59,942 nt of DNA from Nitrososphaerota archaeon (GTDB lineage Archaea; Thermoproteota; Nitrososphaeria; Nitrososphaerales; Nitrosopumilaceae), in assembly GCA_005877205.1 (NCBI GenBank), contig VBPL01000039.1, forward strand, positions 1 through 59,942. The letters are read 5' to 3'. Made by a program: the position numbers and the translations under genes. Numbering within the stretch: position 1 is the stretch's first letter; the number at the start of each line of letters is the position of its first letter. Positions 4,943 to 51,209 of the stretch are shown piece after piece. The notes beneath the pieces are model-generated. The model was not told the DNA's origin. It did no database searches and was given only the letters and a program-made list of their open reading frames with translations.

Positions 4943-5518
4943 ATGTATAATTTCTGCAGCAATACAGAGAGAGTGTTTCAATTTATACAGGACAATCCTG
5001 GAATTCATCTACGACAAATAAAAAAAGAGCTTAATGTATCACTTGGAACAATTCAGTATCATTTATCTGTGTTAGAAAACTCTGGAAGAATCATTTCTGA
5101 ACGTCAGTATTTCAGGAGAACCTATTTTCCGGTGGGGACGTTTAAAAAAAATGAAAGAAACATACTCAAAATACTGAAACGAGATAACTTGAAAGCCATT
5201 CTTCTGTTCGTTATGGAAAAACAAAATCCCACACAAACAGATATTGCAACTGGCCTTGGCCTTTCTAATTCCACGGTAAATCGTCTTCTTAGATATGTGA
5301 TCGATCATGAAATTATCTATGAGATTCGAGATGGAAGATTCAAACGATATCATGTTGGGGATAACGAGACCATAGTCAAATTAATGAAAAATTATCATCC
5401 TGTATTATGGCGTAATTGGAACCAAAGAATAGTTGGTATATTTCTCTCATTGTGGTATGGGATTGTATCATGGCATAATGATGCATTGGAAGTTCTACCA
5501 ACAGTACTTGAAGTGTAG
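4943..5518 (+). CDS. Two-domain winged-helix transcription regulator
   Basis: 191 residues. Two winged-helix DNA-binding domains are visible: about residues 8-65 (I-H-L-R-Q-I-K-K-E-L-N-V-S-L-G-T-I-Q-Y-H-L) and about 72-140 (T-Q-T-D-I-A-T-G-L-G-L-S-N-S-T-V-N-R-L-L). A C-terminal segment rich in Trp may be membrane-associated. This architecture is common among archaeal MarR/ArsR-like regulators. It is divergent from the Lrp-type effector-domain gene at 4523-4765, with less than 180 bp between start codons, so the pair may share control. Confidence 0.8.
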   Translation: MYNFCSNTERVFQFIQDNPGIHLRQIKKELNVSLGTIQYHLSVLENSGRIISERQYFRRTYFPVGTFKKNERNILKILKRDNLKAILLFVMEKQNPTQTDIATGLGLSNSTVNRLLRYVIDHEIIYEIRDGRFKRYHVGDNETIVKLMKNYHPVLWRNWNQRIVGIFLSLWYGIVSWHNDALEVLPTVLEV

Positions 5519-5816: not shown

Positions 5817-5876
5817 CAACATTTTTGTCGCAAAAGCGTCTTGAATTGATATATAATTTTTCTACCAAGTGGTGCC
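5817..5876 (+). promoter_or_regulatory. Promoter module copy 1 with TTTTGTCGCAAAA palindrome
   Basis: The 60 bp before the ATG at 5877 recur almost unchanged before the ATGs at 10416 and 19885 (minus strand). The parts, in order, are the palindrome TTTTG-TCG-CAAAA centred 48 bp before the ATG, the block GTCTTGAAT, a TATA box (GATATATAAT) about 25 bp before the ATG, and CCAAGTG. The TATA spacing predicts transcription starting at or next to the ATG, that is a leaderless mRNA. The palindrome sits just upstream of the TATA/BRE, where an activator or repressor could act. Confidence 0.75.
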
Positions 5877-6134
5877 ATGATAAGCATACCAACAATACAA
5901 AGAGATACCAAGTCACGATATGATATCTATTCTGGGCATGGTATAGGAATATGCAAGACGTGCGGAACTCCCTCCTGTGAAGAGCACAAGCGCGTCTTTT
6001 TCATGGGACAGGGATTCACTTGCGCAAATCATACGGATGAAGAGGTGGCTCTTGACCAAATAGGATGGAATAATTTTATCTGTCCAAAATGCGGTCGTGA
6101 TTATTCCATTGGAAGAAAAATATCAAGTAGATGA
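5877..6134 (+). CDS. Small zinc-ribbon protein
   Basis: 85 residues with paired metal ligands: C-K-T-C, C-E-E-H, then T-C-A-N-H and C-P-K-C-G near the C-terminus. Likely two zinc sites. The C-terminal half is nearly identical to the 51-residue protein at 30378-30533 (shared L-D-Q-I-G-W-N-N-F and D-Y-S-I-G-R-K). The N-terminus M-I-S-I-P-T-I-Q resembles that of the protein at 10416, which has the same promoter module. It may bind nucleic acid or a protein partner; the function is unknown. Confidence 0.75.
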   Translation: MISIPTIQRDTKSRYDIYSGHGIGICKTCGTPSCEEHKRVFFMGQGFTCANHTDEEVALDQIGWNNFICPKCGRDYSIGRKISSR

Positions 6135-6784: not shown

Positions 6785-6865
6785 TCTTAAAAACTATTAT
6801 GGTATACAATGAGGAAAGCAAAGATGGCACACAAATAACTGCAGCTCAGTTATCTTTTTTCTTTG

Positions 6866-6931
6866 CTGGACACAAGTAAAGATGGTTTTAGTCCAGTCCA
6901 TGAAACTTTCTCATTTGTAGTTTCTGTAAGT
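6866..6931 (+). pseudogene. Remnant of an Ig-like secreted protein C-terminus
   Basis: In frame and upstream of egtB lies a stretch reading T-S-K-D-G-F-S-P-V-H-E-T-F-S-F-V-V-S. It matches the last residues of the secreted protein at 803-1930 (T-K-D-G-Y-I-P-A-H-Q-T-F-S-F-E-V-V-S). It has no start codon or upstream domain of its own. The open frame runs on into egtB, but the egtB promoter lies after it, so this is best read as the tail of a deleted gene rather than an egtB N-terminus. Confidence 0.5.
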
Positions 6932-7018
6932 CGGAAGCTACTATTCAAAAGAAACCCAAAAAATAATTTGGATAAAGTCAGGAGGATCATTAATATATTA
7001 TATCTATATACAGTTTAC

Positions 7019-8332
7019 ATGACTTCAAAACAAGAAAATATTTTAGAAATTGCCCAGCAACTGGAACAATTCAAAAATATACGAACTCAAACCCTTGAAC
7101 TAATTCAAACACTAGAAAAAGACGATTTTGTAGTTCAGACCGCCGTGTTTATGAGCCCACCCAAGTGGCATCTAGGGCACGTAAGTTGGTTCTATGAGGT
7201 TATCATGAGCAAAATGGATCCACGTTACGAGTTTTACTCTCAAGAGTATTCCAAGGTTCTAAACTCTTACTATCAGTCATTTGGGCAACCTCACGAAAAA
7301 GCAAAACGTGGAATTTTGTCAAGACCTACCATTGACGAGACACTACAATATTTTAGTATCATAAATAAGCGAGTGGAGGACTTTCTTAAAAATATGCAAA
7401 TTAATAAAAAGGAAATAAATCTTTTCAAAATGGCATTTAATCATGAGTGCCAACATCAAGAACTACTAGTATATGATCTTCAACATTTGCTTGCCAGCGA
7501 TTATAGACCAATAAAACAAAAGATTCCTCCAAAACCATCTGGAATAGAAAAAAAATCAATTAGAATTTCAAGCGGCATTTATGAAATCGGATATTCTGGC
7601 AATGACTTTTGCTATGATATCGAGCTTCCGGAACACAAAGTATACCTAAATCCATATCGCATTGATGCGTTTCCGGTAACAAATGTTGACTTTCTAAAAT
7701 TTATTGAAGATGGTGGATATGATAACTTTAGATTCTGGCTTGCAGACGGATGGGAGCTTGTAAAGAAGAAAAACTGGAAGGCGCCGATGTACTGGGAAAA
7801 AGAAAATGGGAGTTGGCTAAGGCATGACTTTAGAGGAAAACAAGAGATAAACCCAAATGAGCCTGTGTGTAATGTTAGCTATTACGAAGCAGACGCATAC
7901 TGCAAGTGGGCAACAAAGAGACTTCCAACAGAAGCAGAGTGGGAAAAGGCTGCATCTTGGAACGAAGACAAAAAGATAAAAACCATCTACCCATGGGGTA
8001 ATGACAGTCCTACAGAAAACCACGCAAATCTCTTAGAATCATATCTATGGTCACCCTCTGAAATTGGCTCATATGCTGCAGGCAAAAGCCATTATGGATT
8101 GTACCAAATGATGGGTGATGTCTGGGAATGGACGTCATCTGACTTTGTAGGATATCCAGGCTTCAAGTCTGGTTTTGAAGAGTATAACGACAAGTGGTTT
8201 GTGAACCAAAAGGTTCTCCGAGGATCCTCGTTTGCTACCCCAAAGTACTCTGTTAGAAATAGTTATAGGAATTTTTTCAAGCCTGATGAGAGGTGGATGT
8301 TTGCGGGTTTTAGATGTGTGGAGGACATATGA
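7019..8332 (+). CDS. egtB: Ergothioneine sulfoxide synthase EgtB-like
   Basis: 437 residues. The N-terminal DinB-like domain carries the iron-binding histidines: P-K-W-H-L-G-H near residue 45 and H-E-C-Q-H-Q-E near 145. The C-terminal half is a formylglycine-generating-enzyme (sulfatase-modifying factor) fold, with G-I-Y-E-I-G, P-V-T-N-V-D-F, R-L-P-T-E-A-E-W-E-K-A and the end motif G-D-V-W-E-W-T, R-G-S-S and G-F-R-C-V. EgtB is a non-haem iron enzyme that oxidatively couples trimethylhistidine (hercynine) to a thiol substrate. I chose the ATG at 7019 because a TATA-like TAATATATTATAT lies about 25 bp before it. It overlaps egtD by 4 bp. Its relative OvoA has a similar fold, but the dedicated EgtD next door supports EgtB. 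Confidence 0.88.
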   Translation: MTSKQENILEIAQQLEQFKNIRTQTLELIQTLEKDDFVVQTAVFMSPPKWHLGHVSWFYEVIMSKMDPRYEFYSQEYSKVLNSYYQSFGQPHEKAKRGILSRPTIDETLQYFSIINKRVEDFLKNMQINKKEINLFKMAFNHECQHQELLVYDLQHLLASDYRPIKQKIPPKPSGIEKKSIRISSGIYEIGYSGNDFCYDIELPEHKVYLNPYRIDAFPVTNVDFLKFIEDGGYDNFRFWLADGWELVKKKNWKAPMYWEKENGSWLRHDFRGKQEINPNEPVCNVSYYEADAYCKWATKRLPTEAEWEKAASWNEDKKIKTIYPWGNDSPTENHANLLESYLWSPSEIGSYAAGKSHYGLYQMMGDVWEWTSSDFVGYPGFKSGFEEYNDKWFVNQKVLRGSSFATPKYSVRNSYRNFFKPDERWMFAGFRCVEDI

Positions 8333-9357
8333 TAACAAACACAAAACTAGAGACACAGAATTATGACAAAGTCACAGTAACTCCTAGATTTTGCTACTTT
8401 ACGTCTAAAGCTGATAACCAATCCACCCTTGAAAGAGAGGCCTCATACAGTCTCTCAAGAAAAAGGAAATTCATACATCCAAAATTTTTCTATGACAAAA
8501 CAGGTTCCGACCTTTTTGAACAAATCTGTCTGCTACCAGAATACTACCTTACAAGAACTGAAATGAAAATTTTACATGACATCACAAATGAATTGCCAAA
8601 TTACCTCAAAGGAAATTACGCACTAGTAGAATTGGGGAGTGGCTCATCTACAAAAACAAGAAAGTTATTGGAAGCTTTATCTTCGATTCAAAATCAAATA
8701 GAATACTACCCTATTGACATATCTGACATACTAAAGGACAGCTCAACTAGTCTACACGATGAATATGATAATCTGAAAATAACCGGAATTATTGACCAAT
8801 ACGAACCGGCGCTAGAGTTTATCAAACATATAGACCACCAGAAAAAAATTATCGCATTTTTAGGCTCTAGTCTTGGCAATTTTGAACCAGAACAAGCACT
8901 TGAATTTCTTTCAAGTATTCATAAATGTATGCAAAAAAATGACTTGTTACTATTAGGTCTTGATTTAGTAAAGGACACAAAAATCCTTGAGAAAGCCTAC
9001 AATGACTCTAAAGGTATAACTGCCAAGTTCAATCTGAATCTGTTGTCCAGAATCAACAAGGAGCTACAGGCAAGCTTTGATATAAAAAAATTTGAACACT
9101 TGGCAAAGTTCAACAAAAATCAAAGTAGAATTGAGATGTACCTGCGTTCGAAAGTAAACCAAGAAGTCTATATAACTTCTACCGGTTTCTCATTGAAGTT
9201 CAAAAAAGATGAATTAATCAGTACAGAATACTCGTACAAGTACGACATTCCACAAATAAAAGAGATGGCTCAAAAGACTGGATTCAATCTCCAAAAGATG
9301 TGGACTGACAAAAAGAATCATTTCGCTCTTGCCCTTCTTTCACTTCGTGAATTATGA
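8329..9357 (+). CDS. egtD: Histidine N-alpha-methyltransferase EgtD-like
   Basis: 342 residues, close to the usual size. It makes hercynine from histidine with three SAM. Visible motifs: the N-terminal S-L-S-R-K-R-K-F-I-H-P-K-F-F-Y-D-(K)-x-G-S-x-L-F-E-x-I, then L-P-E-Y-Y-L-T-R-T-E, SAM-binding V-E-L-G-S-G-S-S-x-K-T-R, and F-L-G-S-S-L-G-N-F. The start ATG overlaps the egtB stop (ATGA). The gene also overlaps the next by ATGA, so all three are likely co-translated. No egtA, egtC or egtE is in the window; the C-S lyase step would need an enzyme elsewhere. Confidence 0.92.
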   Translation: MITNTKLETQNYDKVTVTPRFCYFTSKADNQSTLEREASYSLSRKRKFIHPKFFYDKTGSDLFEQICLLPEYYLTRTEMKILHDITNELPNYLKGNYALVELGSGSSTKTRKLLEALSSIQNQIEYYPIDISDILKDSSTSLHDEYDNLKITGIIDQYEPALEFIKHIDHQKKIIAFLGSSLGNFEPEQALEFLSSIHKCMQKNDLLLLGLDLVKDTKILEKAYNDSKGITAKFNLNLLSRINKELQASFDIKKFEHLAKFNKNQSRIEMYLRSKVNQEVYITSTGFSLKFKKDELISTEYSYKYDIPQIKEMAQKTGFNLQKMWTDKKNHFALALLSLREL

Positions 9358-9608
9358 AAAAATGTGAGCACTTTGACGGCATAAATGAAAATATTGCTCC
9401 TAATACGAGGGTATGCGAAGAATGTGAAAAAGAGGGAACAGATTGGGTTGCACTGAGGCTTTGTTTGACTTGCGGACATGTAGGATGCTGTGATTCGTCA
9501 GTAGGTACGCATGCAACAAATCATTTTAAAAAGACTGGACATCCTGTAATGGTTGCTTTACCAAATTTTGCGTGGAAGTGGTGCTATGTACATAAGGCCT
9601 ATTCATAA
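9354..9608 (+). CDS. Stand-alone UBP-type zinc finger protein
   Basis: 84 residues, almost entirely a ZnF-UBP domain: C-x-H near the start, C-E-E-C, L-C-L-T-C-G-H-V-G-C-C-D, then H-A-T-N-H-F-K-K-T-G-H-P-V and W-x-W-C-Y-V-H. In eukaryotes this domain binds the free C-terminus of ubiquitin; in prokaryotes it occurs alone with unknown partners. The start overlaps the egtD stop by 4 bp, so it belongs to the ergothioneine operon. What it does there is not known. Confidence 0.85.
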   Translation: MKKCEHFDGINENIAPNTRVCEECEKEGTDWVALRLCLTCGHVGCCDSSVGTHATNHFKKTGHPVMVALPNFAWKWCYVHKAYS

Positions 9609-10355: not shown

Positions 10356-10415
10356 CAACATTTTTGTCGCAAAAACGTCTTGAATGGATATATAATTTTT
10401 TGACCAAGTGTTGAT
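10356..10415 (+). promoter_or_regulatory. Promoter module copy 2 with TTTTGTCGCAAAA palindrome
   Basis: Nearly identical to the 60 bp before 5877, with the same palindrome, GTCTTGAAT block, TATA box (GATATATAAT) and ACCAAGTG, and exactly the same distance from the palindrome to the ATG. Sequence similarity ends sharply at its upstream edge. Confidence 0.75.
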
Positions 10416-10616
10416 ATGAGAACAATACCTACAATACAAAACAAAATCAAGATACAATCCAATGCCTGTTCTGGGAGTCGTAATACCATCTGGATATGTT
10501 ATAGGTGCAACTTGACCTTCAACCAAGAATCAATAGTATCTTTGCACGGTGATATAACAAAACACTCTGTCAGAAAGATTGAATTTCCAAAAGGAGACTT
10601 GAGAGTTGTCACTTAG
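10416..10616 (+). CDS. Small C2H2-type zinc finger protein
   Basis: 66 residues. The motif W-I-C-Y-R-C-N-L-T-F-x9-L-H-x5-H gives C-x2-C-x12-H-x5-H, a classical C2H2 pattern. A clear paralog at 34658-34792 on the other strand shares W-I-C-Y-R-C-N-L. The N-terminus M-R-T-I-P-T-I-Q resembles that of the zinc-ribbon protein at 5877, which has the same promoter module. It may be a DNA-binding regulator or an adaptor. Leaderless translation is likely. Confidence 0.7.
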   Translation: MRTIPTIQNKIKIQSNACSGSRNTIWICYRCNLTFNQESIVSLHGDITKHSVRKIEFPKGDLRVVT

Positions 10617-14685: not shown

Positions 14686-14976
14686 ATGAGTTTTATCAAA
14701 ATCTCTTTTTTAACAATTGATAATGTTATGCTTGATCCTTCAAAGCATGTATTTGTATCAGGCAATTGCTTTAGCGATAAAATAATCGCTAAACAGATTC
14801 AGAGTACACTTGAGAGGAGCAAGATTCCAACCAAAAATATTTCAGAAGGCCTAAACCTTGGAATTGCCTTGACTGGGGATTATTTAATTCGTTGTACTGG
14901 AAGCATGATTACGGTCTTTGAGATTGAGGTTAAATCCAATAGCAATTTTGCAACAAAAAGAATAGGGGAATTATAA
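14686..14976 (+). CDS. Hypothetical protein, 96 residues
   Basis: Begins M-S-F-I-K-I-S-F and contains V-F-V-S-G-N-C-F-S-D-K-I-I-A and N-L-G-I-A-L-T-G-D-Y-L-I-R-C-T-G. Alternating beta strands and one helix are likely, with no membrane segment. I do not recognise the family. A promoter-like TTTATAATAG lies about 30 bp upstream. Confidence 0.55.
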   Translation: MSFIKISFLTIDNVMLDPSKHVFVSGNCFSDKIIAKQIQSTLERSKIPTKNISEGLNLGIALTGDYLIRCTGSMITVFEIEVKSNSNFATKRIGEL

Positions 14977-19135: not shown

Positions 19136-19594
19136 CTATATAATTTTATGTCGGATGTGTTCTGCTACGTTTCTTACAGTGTGTATTGTTTCCTGTGCTG
19201 TCTTGATAGTTCTTAATATTTCCATAACAGCAGTACTTGTTTTGAGTAGATCCTGACCATTGTCACCAAACGAGCCCATCGTACTTTTGATGGATTTGAT
19301 TAATCCTGTGGCTTCATCTATGACGCCTGTCTCTTCTAGCTGTTTTAGAGTATTTTGGATCTTTGTAGTGGATTCATTGATGTTATCTGAGATCAAACGA
19401 AAATTTTCTATATTTTTTACCATCTCTGGTGTCTTGAGAGCATCGATTATCTGCCTTGCAATCATGGCAGTGTCAATCATTTTGCCAAAGGATTCTTGCG
19501 CTTCAGGCGTTCTTGCCTGGCGCACTATTTCTACTGCACCAAAAACAGTTTCCTTGATATCTTTTAGTTTGCTAGTTTTTTCTCCTTGTGTCAT
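19136..19594 (-). CDS. All-helical protein, unknown (152 residues)
   Basis: Long amphipathic helices throughout, for example A-V-E-I-V-R-Q-A-R-T-P-E-A-Q-E-S-F-G-K and I-S-D-N-I-N-E-S-T-T-K-I-Q-N-T-L. It has no Cys and no membrane helix. The heptad-like spacing suggests a coiled coil or helical bundle similar to chemoreceptor signalling stalks. An ATG at 19594 is preferred to a GTG four codons upstream. Confidence 0.65.
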   Translation of the reverse strand: MTQGEKTSKLKDIKETVFGAVEIVRQARTPEAQESFGKMIDTAMIARQIIDALKTPEMVKNIENFRLISDNINESTTKIQNTLKQLEETGVIDEATGLIKSIKSTMGSFGDNGQDLLKTSTAVMEILRTIKTAQETIHTVRNVAEHIRHKII

Positions 19595-19726
19595 GTTATG
19601 ATACACCTAGAAGAAATGAGCAGAGAATGACTTTGCCCAGAGCAAAAAAATTCTCCTTACCATGTACGAACTGCATTACCTGAATAGCGTATTCTACACA
19701 TCTTGCAAGTAAGACAGAGTCATCCA

Positions 19727-19885
19727 TTAAAGATTTTCTCCTGGAATTTCTTTGCAATTGTTTGATACCCCATCAGGGACTAGTCGTGTTGCTAATTCGT
19801 GATACATGTGAGAAAACGTGGTTAAATCTTTAATTCCATTTTCTAATCTTGATACAATGTATTTGATTACTGGTGCTGATCTCAT
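19727..19885 (-). CDS. Small protein (52 residues) with shared promoter module
   Basis: Begins M-R-S-A-P-V-I-K-Y-I-V-S-R-L-E-N-G and continues with a helix containing T-F-S-H-M-Y-H-E-L-A-T-R-L. It has a single Cys. The main support is the promoter: the 60 bp before the ATG are the third copy of the module before 5877 and 10416. It is not a zinc finger. Function unknown. Confidence 0.55.
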   Translation of the reverse strand: MRSAPVIKYIVSRLENGIKDLTTFSHMYHELATRLVPDGVSNNCKEIPGENL

Positions 19886-19945
19886 GAGAACACTTGATAG
19901 GAAAATTATTTATCTATTCAAGACTTTTTTGCGACAAAAATGTTG
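19886..19945 (-). promoter_or_regulatory. Promoter module copy 3 with TTTTGTCGCAAAA palindrome
   Basis: On the minus strand the 60 bp before the ATG at 19885 contain CAACATTTTTGTCGCAAAA, GTCTTGAAT, an AT-rich TATA (GATAAATAAT) and ATCAAGTG. Every element has the same spacing to the start codon as in copies 1 and 2. Confidence 0.7.
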
Positions 19946-30377: not shown

Positions 30378-30533
30378 ATGGAACAAAGATTAACATGTGC
30401 AAACCATTCAGGTGAAGAAATAGTTCTTGATCAAATAGGATGGAATAATTTTACATGTCCAAAATGCGGTAATGATTACTCTATTGGGAGAAAAGTAGTG
30501 GTATTGGCTCCAAAACTCGTGAAAAGATCCTGA
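30378..30533 (+). CDS. Short zinc-ribbon protein, truncated paralog of 5877-6134
   Basis: 51 residues, nearly identical to the C-terminal half of the protein at 5877 (C-A-N-H, then L-D-Q-I-G-W-N-N-F-T-C-P-K-C-G and D-Y-S-I-G-R-K). The N-terminal half with the other Cys pair is missing: an in-frame TAA lies 8 codons before the ATG, and DNA similarity continues a little upstream of the ATG. AAGGAGG is nearby as a possible ribosome site. It may be a working single-ribbon protein or a remnant. Confidence 0.6.
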   Translation: MEQRLTCANHSGEEIVLDQIGWNNFTCPKCGNDYSIGRKVVVLAPKLVKRS

Positions 30534-34495: not shown

Positions 34496-34657
34496 CATCG
34501 AGGTTTTATTAGGAAAAGTGTTTTAGTTTATTCTTTTAGGAAATTATTCTATACGATCTCTACCTGTGTAAAACCTACATCATTTTTTAAATGTCTTTGA
34601 TATATTGTTGACTGCCAACAACTCTCACTCAAACAAATAGCACCTCATGTTACCTAC

Positions 34658-34792
34658 TTATTGTTCGTAAAGTTCTATTGCGTGATGATTAGAAATGTCC
34701 CTGTGAATCATAACACTTGATCTGTCTCTGAATACTAGGTTACACCTGTAGCATATCCACATATCTTGTTTTTTCAAATTCTGATCCGACAA
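34658..34792 (-). CDS. Small C2H2-type zinc finger protein, 44 residues
   Basis: M-W-I-C-Y-R-C-N-L-V-F-x9-I-H-x5-H(H): C-x2-C-x12-H-x5-H. It is a clear paralog of the protein at 10416 (W-I-C-Y-R-C-N-L). A TTG at 34792 gives 44 residues, and the ATG ten codons later gives 34. About 53 bp before the TTG is ATAGAACAATCTTA, resembling the element before gvpA. Confidence 0.6.
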   Translation of the reverse strand: MSDQNLKKQDMWICYRCNLVFRDRSSVMIHRDISNHHAIELYEQ

Positions 34793-42448: not shown

Positions 42449-43546
42449 TTATTTAATTTGTATTGGTATGTTAAACGAAAAAGTAGCACCTGTATTGCTG
42501 TCAGGATCAGCATTTTCTGACCATATCTTTCCACCATGGCTTTCAATAATTTCTTTTGAAATGTATAGGCCTAAACCAGTACCCTTGTCCGATTTTGTTG
42601 CAAACTTTGAAAATAGAATTGGTACTATCTGTAGATCTATTCCAGGGCCGCTATCCCTCACACTAACTAAAGCATGTTCGTCCTTTCTTTCTGCAGACAC
42701 GATAATTGCTCCCTGTCCTGTAAACTTGATGGCATTATTTAATAAATTGGAAATGACCTGAGATATTCTATCTTTATCTGCCTCTACGTCGAGTCTGATA
42801 CCTGCGGTTTTATGAATAATTTTAACTAGTGGCTTTTCAATATGGACGCTTTCGTCTTTGACAATATTTGATATAACTGCATTTAGATCAAACCATTCCT
42901 TTTTCAATGTAAGCGATTTACTCTGAATTCTTGAAACGCTGAGAATATTTTCGGTTAGGCGTTGCAGTCTTCTTGCGTTTCGAACGATTATTTTAATCTC
43001 TTCGTTGTCGCTTCCCAGTCTATCCATTAAAAGTTCAACATTTACAAGGATCGGCATAATTGGGGTGCGTAGCTCGTGAGCTGCAATATTGATGAACTCG
43101 GTCTGTGTTATGAGTTGTCTTTGAACAGATCTGAAAAATTCAGATGTTATAACTTTTCTTGCTTCAGCCTTTAATGAACCGTCAACTATAGGATCACGTA
43201 TGGCTTTTTTAAGCATTTCATCTTCCATTTCTGTATCACGGAGAATCTGAATAAATTTCTCAAGCGCTTCCAGACCGCGATTTACTCTTATGCTAGCTTC
43301 CCGAAAGACTGCCTCTTGATTTAATCTTGTCTTTATCAGCTCATGCTTGGCTACAATAGACGTGGTTGTTTGATTCAACTTTTGTCTTACCTGTTCTATT
43401 TTATCGGCTCTTCTTTGAATCAATTCTTCTCTGGCAGAAAATGCTTCTATCTTTACTTTTTCTACCTGTTCTCTGATGCGATTTTGGATCCTTCGCACCT
43501 GCAACGCATGCAGTACTGCCCTGTCAGTTTCTTCCTCCTTATTCAT
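42449..43546 (-). CDS. Sensor histidine kinase in the gas-vesicle operon
   Basis: 365 residues, soluble. The N-terminal third is an Arg/Glu/Gln-rich coiled coil (about 10-95). H-box: A-A-H-E-L-R-T-P-I-M-P. ATPase domain: N-L-L-N-N-A-I-K-F-T (N box), D-S-G-P-G-I (G1) and G-T-G-L-G-L-Y-I-S (G2). The start overlaps the gvpG stop by 4 bp. No sensor domain other than the coiled coil is seen, so it may sense through a partner, perhaps a gas-vesicle protein. The orphan receiver at 46165 may be the target. Confidence 0.9.
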   Translation of the reverse strand: MNKEEETDRAVLHALQVRRIQNRIREQVEKVKIEAFSAREELIQRRADKIEQVRQKLNQTTTSIVAKHELIKTRLNQEAVFREASIRVNRGLEALEKFIQILRDTEMEDEMLKKAIRDPIVDGSLKAEARKVITSEFFRSVQRQLITQTEFINIAAHELRTPIMPILVNVELLMDRLGSDNEEIKIIVRNARRLQRLTENILSVSRIQSKSLTLKKEWFDLNAVISNIVKDESVHIEKPLVKIIHKTAGIRLDVEADKDRISQVISNLLNNAIKFTGQGAIIVSAERKDEHALVSVRDSGPGIDLQIVPILFSKFATKSDKGTGLGLYISKEIIESHGGKIWSENADPDSNTGATFSFNIPIQIK

Positions 43547-47503: not shown

Positions 47504-48961
47504 TTAGACAATAGGCTCAAATGTTATGTCAGCATATTGTGAATTTGTCTCTGGTACAATAGCATACAGATTAGACCAAGGAATTTCTGATTGTAAAAAC
47601 AGAGCACCATTAATCTCTAAGATTCTGAGGTGCACATCTGATATTTCTGACAGATAACCTCGTAGATTACTTTGAGATGTTCTTAACATAAAAATAGTAA
47701 TTGCAGAGTGCGATTTGATGAAAGAAATGAGATATTTTAATCCACTTCTATTTTCGTTTTTCTGCAATACTTCTGCAACATCTGATCCAAGAATGTTGAG
47801 AAGAAGCTTGTTAGGATATTTTCTTTTTAGTTTGAGTATAGTTTTGTAATAATTTTCCATTTGTTTTTTACTCTCATCGATCCCCTGTTCTGACAAATGA
47901 TAGGAAATCTTTCTAGATTTATTAATAGGTAAGAAGACTTTGAGTAGGCTTTTGGAGTATGAGTCAGATAGTCCAAAATACTGAAATATATATGCAGGAT
48001 CAACCCCTTCAAATGGCTGAAATAATACTATATTTCTGTTAGAGGTAAAATTAGATACAATTCCTCTTAAAAATGTCATTGCTACTTTAGTATTTACATG
48101 TGTATCAAGCTCAATACTTACAATGCCATTTTTTGGGAAACCGCCACCTAGCAAATCATCTAGTTGATGATAACCCGTTGGAATGAGCGAATTTCGAGTT
48201 AGGAGGGGTGTATTTACAATGTTGTTCTTAGAAGGCTTGGAATTTTCATCAAGCGAAAACTGTGCTAGATTGTAACAATCATAGCTGCGGAATAGGCCCT
48301 TGTCTAGGGAGAATATGTAGGAAGGTCGGTTTATCCGCACTCCACGCAATTTTGAAAGAAAGATCTCTCGTACTTTTCTATCATTGTAGTATTTTTGGTT
48401 CAGTTCTACTACTCCATCTACAAGAAAATCAAGAGTTGCGTCTGCAGCTGCCTCTGTGATAAAAATTATTTTGGCACCCGATCGCTCACGCCACATTTGT
48501 AAGACCCGAACATTATTCATAAGTGCTTCTTTGTCCATGAAAAGACCAACTGCATCCCAACTGTCGATAATTATAGTTGGTGCCTTAACGTCCATTAGCT
48601 CATTTGTAATTCTCTCAAAAAGAGATCCTGGTTCATCAAGACGCGAATCAAGGAAAACTGGCACGTCACTTTCGGCTTCAGGAACTTCTGTCAGCTCAGT
48701 TTTCTTTGGTTTGTTAAAAAATTTTTCAAGCCACGAATAATATTGGAAGAGTTGCTCAGGAGAAATTCTTGTGGATATGTAGAGACAGTTAGTCTTCACA
48801 TCTAATTCCCGTAATATTGTTAATGCTAGTGTGGTCTTGCCTGTTCCAGCGTGCCCCTTAATTAATAAAGAATATGTATTTTGGTTCAGAAATTGAATTA
48901 GTTCTCTGGGAATCTTGGCCGGGCCATCTTCTAGTTGACTGTTTCTCTCATTGTCATACAT
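47504..48961 (-). CDS. gvpD: GvpD-like RecA/KaiC-superfamily ATPase
   Basis: 485 residues. The N-terminal domain starts I-P-R-E-L-I-Q-F-L-N and has a P-loop (G-H-A-G-T-G-K-T-T-L-A) and Walker B (T-I-I-I-D-S-W-D-A). A second domain from about 265 has G-Y-H-Q-L-D-D-L-L-G-G-G-F-P-K-N-G, a KaiC-like but P-loop-less repeat. GvpD in haloarchaea is a P-loop protein that represses gas-vesicle genes by controlling the activator GvpE. Position upstream of gvpA supports the same role; no GvpE is seen here. A general KaiC-like signalling ATPase is the alternative. Confidence 0.8.
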   Translation of the reverse strand: MYDNERNSQLEDGPAKIPRELIQFLNQNTYSLLIKGHAGTGKTTLALTILRELDVKTNCLYISTRISPEQLFQYYSWLEKFFNKPKKTELTEVPEAESDVPVFLDSRLDEPGSLFERITNELMDVKAPTIIIDSWDAVGLFMDKEALMNNVRVLQMWRERSGAKIIFITEAAADATLDFLVDGVVELNQKYYNDRKVREIFLSKLRGVRINRPSYIFSLDKGLFRSYDCYNLAQFSLDENSKPSKNNIVNTPLLTRNSLIPTGYHQLDDLLGGGFPKNGIVSIELDTHVNTKVAMTFLRGIVSNFTSNRNIVLFQPFEGVDPAYIFQYFGLSDSYSKSLLKVFLPINKSRKISYHLSEQGIDESKKQMENYYKTILKLKRKYPNKLLLNILGSDVAEVLQKNENRSGLKYLISFIKSHSAITIFMLRTSQSNLRGYLSEISDVHLRILEINGALFLQSEIPWSNLYAIVPETNSQYADITFEPIV

Positions 48962-49448: not shown

Positions 49449-51209
49449 TTACTTGACAGTAACAGATTTTGCCAGATTTCTTGGATAATCCGGGTCTGTA
49501 TGCTTTTCAACTGCAGCATAATAAGCAAGGAGTTGTATTGGAACTATCTCAATGAACGGGAATAAAGCTTCACTAATAGTTGGGATTTTAATCCAATAAT
49601 CATAGGTATCGTCATATTTGTCTGATATCCCAATTATCTTTGCTCCACGAACCTTGATTTCATGAGCACTAGCCAGATTCTCTTGATTTGTAGAATCATG
49701 TGGATTTATTATTATTACATAAACGCTAGGATCCATCAGTGCCAAAGGTCCATGTTTGAGCTCTCCTCCGGGAAGACCCTCTGCATGAATGTAGGTCAAT
49801 TCTTTAAGTTTCAAGGATGCTTCTAGAGCTATTGGATAATGTATTCCTCTTCCAATTATATAAATATCAGATGCATAGCTGAGAATTTTTGCAATATCTC
49901 TGATCTTTGAATGATCCACGAGTATCTCTTTCATGGATTGAGAGATCTTTTGCGAGTCAAATCCAATATGACCACCCGCTATGTTGTCAGCTATCTTGTA
50001 GAGTATTCCAAGCTGAGATGTGAAACTTTTCGTTGCAGCAACACCTATTTCTGGCCCACAGTTTAGTCCTACTGAGACAGAAGAAATCTGCGGCAAGGAA
50101 GAGGTCATAGTATTTACAATGGATATTACCGTTGAATTGTGTCTTTTGGCCATTTTTACTGCTTCTAAGACATCTGCACTCTCTCCACTCTGAGATAATG
50201 CAATAAGAATTGAATGATTGTCAAAATAATCAGGATAAAATCTAGCCTCGCTTGCAATTACTGATTCAATCTTTATTTTAGCATATTTCAAGAAAATATG
50301 TTTGGCAATAAGAGCTGCGTTATAGCTAGTACCACTACCTGTAATATGCAAACTTTTTGCATTTTTTACTAATTCGATAAATAATTCAAGTTCCGACCTT
50401 GTATTATCAGCAGTTTTAAGTATTGTATTTGGCTGTTCAGAAATTTCTTTTAGAGTGAAATGTGCATACTTGCCTTTGTATACATCTGCAAATTCCCTTG
50501 AAATCTTTGTGATCTCATGCTTAACTGGTCTTCCAAGAAAATCAAGAAATTGTAACCCGTTAGCATTTATTATTATGATTTCTCCGTTGTTTGGATAAAT
50601 GGCTTCGTCAGTGTATTGAACAAATCCTAATACATCGCTTGATATGAAGTAGCCAGATTTTCCCACCCCTAGGATTAAAGGTTCATGAAATCTTGCAGCA
50701 GATAACGTCCCATCAGGAAAAACCGCTACAAACGAATAATCTCCCCTGAGCACTGAAACGGTTTTGATCATTGAATCCTTAATGTTCTTTATTGTATCAA
50801 AATTGTATTGTAACAGATTTGCGATAACTTCACTATCAGTTTCACTTCGGAAACGATACCCATCTCTTTGTAGACTTTCCTTTAATTCCTTATAGTTATC
50901 AATTATTCCATTATGAACTATGGCAATCTCTCCAGAACTGGACAAATGAGGATGGGCATTTGTCTCATTTACCCGTCCATGTGTTGCCCATCTGGTGTGG
51001 CCTATGCCTATGTTGCCTGACAGCATGTACAGTTTTACCTTGCTGTTTACTTCTTCCACCTTGCCAACTCCCTTTCTTACCAGAATCTGATTGCCAAAAA
51101 ACGTAGCAATTCCTACACTATCATATCCTCTGTATTCCATTCGTTTAAGTCCATTTACAACAATTTGTGCAGCTGCGATATCACCGAGATAACCTATAAT
51201 GGAGCACAT
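49449..51209 (-). CDS. glmS: Glutamine-fructose-6-phosphate aminotransferase GlmS
   Basis: 586 residues, full length. The N-terminal class II glutamine amidotransferase begins C-S-I-I-G-Y-L-G (Cys nucleophile after Met1), with H-T-R-W-A-T-H-G and H-N-G-I-I-D-N-Y. Two SIS sugar-isomerase domains follow (S-G-T-S-Y-N-A-A, S-Q-S-G-E-S-A-D and E-L-K-H-G-P-L-A-L). The end P-R-N-L-A-K-S-V-T-V-K is the usual one. It makes glucosamine 6-phosphate, the entry to UDP-GlcNAc for glycans and glycoproteins. Confidence 0.97.
   Translation of the reverse strand: MCSIIGYLGDIAAAQIVVNGLKRMEYRGYDSVGIATFFGNQILVRKGVGKVEEVNSKVKLYMLSGNIGIGHTRWATHGRVNETNAHPHLSSSGEIAIVHNGIIDNYKELKESLQRDGYRFRSETDSEVIANLLQYNFDTIKNIKDSMIKTVSVLRGDYSFVAVFPDGTLSAARFHEPLILGVGKSGYFISSDVLGFVQYTDEAIYPNNGEIIIINANGLQFLDFLGRPVKHEITKISREFADVYKGKYAHFTLKEISEQPNTILKTADNTRSELELFIELVKNAKSLHITGSGTSYNAALIAKHIFLKYAKIKIESVIASEARFYPDYFDNHSILIALSQSGESADVLEAVKMAKRHNSTVISIVNTMTSSLPQISSVSVGLNCGPEIGVAATKSFTSQLGILYKIADNIAGGHIGFDSQKISQSMKEILVDHSKIRDIAKILSYASDIYIIGRGIHYPIALEASLKLKELTYIHAEGLPGGELKHGPLALMDPSVYVIIINPHDSTNQENLASAHEIKVRGAKIIGISDKYDDTYDYWIKIPTISEALFPFIEIVPIQLLAYYAAVEKHTDPDYPRNLAKSVTVK

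Follow-up and report, generated by a model that had tools for sequence, protein, structure and literature searches.

A promoter block apparently copied together with first codons ahead of small genes in Ca. Nitrosotalea-type archaea, and a candidate Lrp-like regulator

Results

The window, meaning the whole 59,942-bp stretch of DNA analysed here, is part of contig C47 in a 98-contig, 1.56-Mb genome (G000) of a Ca. Nitrosotalea-type ammonia oxidizer, whose same-genus relatives include Ca. Nitrosotalea records such as N. devanaterra (LN890280). It holds three copies of a 60-bp promoter block, each directly ahead of a small gene: copy 1 (5817..5876, +) precedes gene 1 (5877..6134, +), copy 2 (10356..10415, +) precedes gene 2 (10416..10616, +), and copy 3 (19886..19945, −) precedes gene 3 (19727..19885, −). 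Neither an Rfam nor a tRNA scan of the window gave a hit, so none of the known RNA elements is involved.

Other parts of the window encode an adjacent FGE-sulfatase plus DinB_2 gene and Methyltransf_33 histidine-specific methyltransferase gene (6863-9357, +), which resemble the ergothioneine pair EgtB/EgtD, and, directly 3' of the methyltransferase gene, a small zf-UBP (ubiquitin-hydrolase zinc finger) protein (9354-9608, +). There are also genes for a histidine kinase (42449-43546, −) and a KaiC/GvpD-like ATPase (47504-48961, −). Two glmS-type paralogues occur in the genome, one in the window (49449-51209, −) and one at G000:C45:74852-76609; the window type was detected in only part of the 30 genomes searched.

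All three blocks fit the 50-bp pattern TTTTTGTCGCAAAANNGTCTTGAATNNATANATAATTTTNNNANCAAGTG with no mismatch (chance expectation 0; 100 shuffles gave nothing close), and the first base of CAAC is exactly 60 bp 5' of the ATG in 3 of 3, as an earlier note on this DNA had stated. Block edges were set by pairwise identity. Within the blocks this is 50-53 of 60 bases, and just 5' of them (-100..-61) only 9-11 of 40 bases are identical, which is background, so the upstream edge is sharp. The earlier note placed the end of similarity at the block's edge on the gene side as well, but the first bases after the ATG are also alike. Genes 1 and 2 have about 60 further bases in common 3' of the ATG, with 21/30 identical at +4..+33 and 19/30 at +34..+63, and genes 2 and 3 are identical at 17/30 bases at +4..+33; unrelated starts in the window have a mean of 8.3/30 and a maximum of 18 over about 2900 pairs. 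The common start of the coding module encodes M-x-x-I-P-x-I/V.

Each block carries a palindrome that we treat as a putative operator. The core TTTTG-TCG-CAAAA that was originally pointed out is present, but it is too short a description, since the symmetry reaches 21 bp. The operators are ACATTTTTG-TCG-CAAAAGCGT in copy 1 (5819..5839, +; 7/9 symmetric pairs), ACATTTTTG-TCG-CAAAAACGT in copy 2 (10358..10378, +; 8/9) and ACATTTTTG-TCG-CAAAAAAGT in copy 3 (19923..19943, −; 8/9). TATA boxes follow at 5850..5856 (+, TATATAA), 10389..10395 (+, TATATAA) and 19906..19912 (−, TAAATAA), the first of which ends 20 nt before the ATG. Across target sites, symmetry averages 7.28 of 9 pairs, while the median for other centres in the block is 3.06. 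The distance from operator end to TATA box is 10 nt at 25/25 target sites, the operator ends 37-38 nt before the ATG at 23/25, and TATAA ends 20-21 nt before the ATG, also at 23/25. Given this TATA box spacing, which is that of leaderless promoters, we infer that transcription from the blocks would be leaderless. The second gene of the copy 3 operon has a GGAG-type ribosome-binding sequence. The C2H2 gene of genome G027 (L082, 2900-2960) has the operator region TTGCAACAAAAATGTTGCAA, a different palindrome that overlaps the usual one.

A search of the genome with three mismatches allowed returned the three window copies only, and a shorter pattern revealed a fourth, diverged copy on contig C36. 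All four lie directly 5' of a small ORF, with the ATG at equal distance. The C36 copy, which lacks the outer ACA of the palindrome, sits between a small zinc-finger gene and a divergent gene for a 261-aa candidate regulator. An occurrence of TTTTTGTTGCAAAA at 14946 and one-mismatch copies elsewhere in the genome were taken as chance because they have no TATA box or start at the right distance; a weak match on contig C88 was likewise taken as chance.

Exact-pattern scans of GTDB and viral contigs gave no matches, probably because most relatives have TTG in place of TCG, and mismatched patterns and a sequence profile were needed to find the block in relatives. The profile (R1, from 25 sites) detects strong sites in 21 of 37 genomes of the genus, and these fall into three classes. 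In class a, to which window copy 3 belongs, the block precedes a conserved operon of a short leader ORF, a 43-aa protein, a ~136-196-aa helical protein and often a 50-aa zinc-ribbon gene. Class b is the region between the divergent ~260-aa regulator and a 75-aa zinc-finger gene, as on C36, the zinc-finger gene being followed by one for a protein with a signal-peptide-like N-terminus. Class c, found in G024 and G027, consists of genes related to window genes 1 and 2. Each genome has a short list of two to five target promoters. One zinc-finger locus (L090, G036:C57) contains unresolved bases and repeated segments and is probably a misassembly.

The earlier note proposed that the blocks stand before unlike small genes, and this attachment to different genes is borne out: they lead into zinc-ribbon and C2H2 halves and an operon leader. 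Gene 1 encodes an 85-aa chimera. Residues 1-38 resemble the regulator-adjacent zinc-finger protein (hhalign E 9e-9 against its family), and the DNA from 5997 on matches a free-standing zinc-ribbon gene (local alignment score 80, shuffled maximum 16), the match beginning at TTTTTCATGG, which is the start of that free-standing gene. The ribbon half (about aa 40-82) corresponds to the free-standing gene that starts MEQRLTCANH in other genomes. A free-standing paralogue in the window (MEQRLTCANHSGEE.., 30378..30533, +), where the operator is absent, is likely the type of parent that supplied the 3' half. Gene 2 (66 aa) joins the shared 5' module to a C2H2 finger. Its N-terminus is related more weakly to the zinc-finger family (E 2e-7, from a two-sequence alignment), and its DNA from 10491, past the stop codon and into the 3' flank, matches a free-standing C2H2 gene at G000:C89. 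Relatives of the C2H2 half (about aa 22-60) occur in 133 of 151 family genomes, mostly without the gene 2 N-terminus, and a free-standing C2H2 paralogue in the window (approximate span 34640..34771, −) has no operator.

Gene 3 is the 52-aa leader ORF of an operon, and its 3' end overlaps the next start (TAATG). The second gene (19596..19727, −) encodes a 43-aa hydrophobic-tailed protein (MDDSVLLARCVEYAIQVMQF..GKEN..) that is found behind the same promoter in other Nitrosotalea genomes, and the third (19136..19594, −) a 152-aa helical protein, to which Pfam gave no reliable name and whose PDB matches are mostly designed helical proteins. Genomes G041 and G027 have the leader and the 43-aa protein as one in-frame fusion, and the 3' end of gene 3 is homologous to the fused leader in L007. 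In other Nitrosopumilaceae genera (L205-L213), a ~115-aa membrane-type protein, which in L205 contains 'ILSIPSIS', and another helical protein come before the helical protein; this arrangement is perhaps an ancestral form of the operon.

These leader fusions and the chimeric genes 1 and 2 indicate that one 5' unit has been joined to different 3' parts. Block identity and chimeric gene structure both favour the promoter duplication that had been suggested. Judged from the alignments, the copied unit is the 60-bp promoter plus the first 10-40 codons, and not the promoter alone, as was initially supposed. Could the three genes instead be diverged paralogues of the regulator-adjacent zinc-finger gene, duplicated whole with the promoter carried along and no joining? 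Their N-termini are related and the CxxC spacing is partly common to them, but we regard this as very unlikely: in gene 1 the match to the free-standing ribbon gene sets in at the latter's start codon and covers the 3' half, in gene 2 the 3' half resembles the C2H2 gene and the similarity runs on into the 3' flank, both halves are widespread without the module, and gene 3 leads into an operon with no zinc-finger homology.

Least probable of all is a dispersed, MITE-like mobile repeat or an active capture cassette. The existence of several copies and the sharp upstream edge would suit such an element; against it, the 1.56-Mb genome has only four copies, all of them at one fixed position with respect to an ATG, the length of coding homology differs between copies, and the collection gave no matches outside the clade. 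No terminal repeats, integrase or target duplications were noticed on simple inspection of the sequence around the copies. The earlier note took many copies unrelated to starts as the sign of such a repeat, and in the genome-wide block search every strong site is at a start. Its idea of an active gene-capturing cassette also fits poorly with genes 1 and 2 being chimeras with free-standing genes and gene 3 being the first gene of a conserved operon.

The candidate regulator gene (G000:C36:2671-3456, 261 aa) is divergent from the zinc-finger gene, and its promoter holds the same palindrome as the target operators, ending 37-39 nt 5' of the regulator ATG. N. devanaterra has an orthologue (LN890280, 1190876-1191625). 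It is here that the most symmetric form, ACATTTTTG-TCG-CAAAAATGT, occurs; regulator promoters average 8.15 of 9 pairs, and 10 of 20 rows have 9/9. The predicted protein model, of low confidence (mean pLDDT 57; Foldseek TM 0.26 by query length), combines a winged helix (H25-35, H40-49, H56-68, E72-75) with a RAM-like beta-alpha-beta-beta-alpha-beta part (E101-107, H120-134, E137-144, E150-157, H161-173, E179-184), which is the Lrp/AsnC architecture. All 11 PDB matches to the model at E<=0.001 are Lrp/AsnC-type structures or variants. At the sequence level, NCBIfam gave no match, Pfam gave HTH models below cut-off only, and profile searches of the PDB found no Lrp and no sequence relative. The protein is thus probably of Lrp/AsnC type by its model, and we term it 'Lrp-like' rather than a certified member because curated profiles and solved Lrp sequences were not matched. 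A literature search, with subscription journals outside its coverage, returned no paper on the regulator or the promoter in Nitrosotalea, and neither was found by term search in PMC4836417 and in PMC5767755, which concerns a Nitrosotalea fen metatranscriptome.

Regulator and sites occur together across genomes. Among 400 genomes of the order, 23 have R1 sites (E<=1e-5), including all 20 regulator-bearing genomes and 3 of the 380 regulator-free ones (G001, G024 and G279), a distribution that does not fit a generic core promoter of ammonia-oxidizing archaea, present irrespective of the regulator. The association has a Fisher p of 6e-31, a value that ignores phylogeny. Within the genus, 19 genomes have both, none has the regulator only, 2 have a site only and 16 have neither. 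The helical gene of the operon is, in the genus sample, confined to regulator-bearing genomes (10/10, against 0/12 of the regulator-free). On a glmS tree, which represents one gene and one paralogue, regulator presence is patchy and requires 7 changes, of which supported branches force at least 4; the pairing has therefore survived several separate gains or losses. The common regulator that had been postulated is supported by the divergent Lrp-like gene, whose promoter contains this operator too and which is found in genomes together with the sites.

We also considered that another factor, general or alternative, binds the palindrome and that the Lrp-like gene is merely one of its targets. A single intergenic region lies between the regulator and zinc-finger genes, which makes some of the co-occurrence a matter of position, and two fairly complete genomes, G001 (97%) and G279 (95%), keep a site with the regulator undetectable. 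Yet the operon sites, at distant loci, also track the regulator, and a general factor is unlikely because none of the other 377 genomes sampled from the order has a block-like promoter. By position, the winged-helix protein whose gene lies at 4943-5518, some 360 bp 5' of copy 1, could be such a factor, but it has relatives in 34 of 37 genomes regardless of sites, the closest mostly in site-free genomes, and we rejected it as the regulator on this independent distribution. Overall, we consider binding by another factor improbable. In G001 the operon promoter is kept, the 43-aa and helical genes are absent, and the regulator was not found. The block there (L020/L103, G001:C202) precedes a short leader and a 50-aa ribbon gene, and looks like a decaying operon.

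Discussion

So, what is the block? We think it likely that it serves a small Lrp/AsnC-type regulon as a regulated, leaderless promoter, duplicated with its first codons onto small genes. One Lrp-type regulator, whose gene lies elsewhere in the genome, probably governs all of these unrelated small genes, and the regulon is seen in Ca. Nitrosotalea and a sister genus. The 21-bp palindrome (ACATTTTTGTCGCAAAAACGT), which abuts the BRE, is probably bound by the 261-aa regulator as a dimer, and the regulator most likely also controls its own gene by way of the palindrome in the regulator promoter. The unit seems to have started out as the zinc-finger gene that diverges from the regulator gene. We infer that the promoter and first ~10-40 codons of such a gene were copied and fused to 3' halves taken from free-standing zinc-ribbon and C2H2 genes, giving genes 1 and 2, and that the same module was also joined to the operon of the 43-aa and helical proteins, giving gene 3. 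The cysteine-rich targets invite the speculation that zinc or redox state is sensed.

The regulator would most likely activate, by aiding TBP/TFB recruitment. Activating archaeal Lrp proteins such as Ptr2, LysM and Ss-LrpB have a dimer site just 5' of the BRE, in a highly constrained position, and contact TBP, and most Lrp members also autoregulate (PMC2995911). A palindrome of this kind a few bp 5' of the BRE, at constrained distance, is present at 25/25 target sites, and activation is the favoured reading because the anatomy fits this pattern. The same regulator and operator might serve repression, or dual regulation that depends on concentration, by blocking TFB/TBP access beside the BRE. 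Only 10 bp separate the operator from the TATA box, so that an oligomer of larger size could extend over the BRE; the most symmetric operators are in the regulator promoter, and examples of negative autoregulation and of dual action exist among Lrp proteins (PMC2995911). Since the site is single and lies 5' of the TATA box and start, not over them, fixed in position as in archaeal Lrp activation, we hold repression to be a considerably less probable mode than activation.

The predicted system resembles those of Ptr2 (Methanocaldococcus), LysM and Ss-LrpB (Sulfolobus) in the winged helix and RAM-like fold of the model, in the putative palindromic dimer site just 5' of the BRE at a constrained position, and in the palindrome within the regulator's own promoter. 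It differs in that there is no sequence-level membership, the protein has 261 aa with a C-terminal extension, there is usually one operator per target instead of site clusters (PMC2995911), and, in place of amino-acid or ferredoxin genes, the targets comprise an operon and small zinc-finger genes. FL11, a feast/famine regulatory protein of Pyrococcus, was co-crystallised on a 13-bp palindrome (PMC2995911), which compares with the 13-bp core TTTTG-TCG-CAAAA here. The symmetry of the operators described here is longer, at 21 bp. The FL11 core also differs in sequence from TTTTG-TCG-CAAAA. BarR (Acidianus/Sulfolobus) is likewise an Lrp-type regulator conserved in one archaeal lineage (PMC10201364); the phylum and the targets differ here.

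A broader idea, which we put forward tentatively and consider somewhat doubtful, is that the regulon grows repeatedly in this way: the regulator-adjacent gene's promoter, operator, leaderless start and first codons would be duplicated in one piece and joined, in frame, to small unrelated genes of zinc-binding or membrane type, with the N-terminus M-x-x-I-P-x-I/V acting as a translation-initiation segment and shared peptide tag.

Pairing regulators with operators is hard in ammonia oxidizers that are uncultured or difficult to grow, and genetic tools for them were undeveloped at the time of writing of PMC4836417; here a candidate regulator, a 21-bp operator and the targets can be named. The repeated joint loss of regulator, operon and sites offers a natural comparison for function in acid-soil nitrifiers. 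The chimeric genes are an unusually clear record of a regulon gaining members, by promoter and first codons being placed onto existing small genes, and such module copying shows how a gene network of this kind can grow in acid-soil ammonia-oxidizing archaea.
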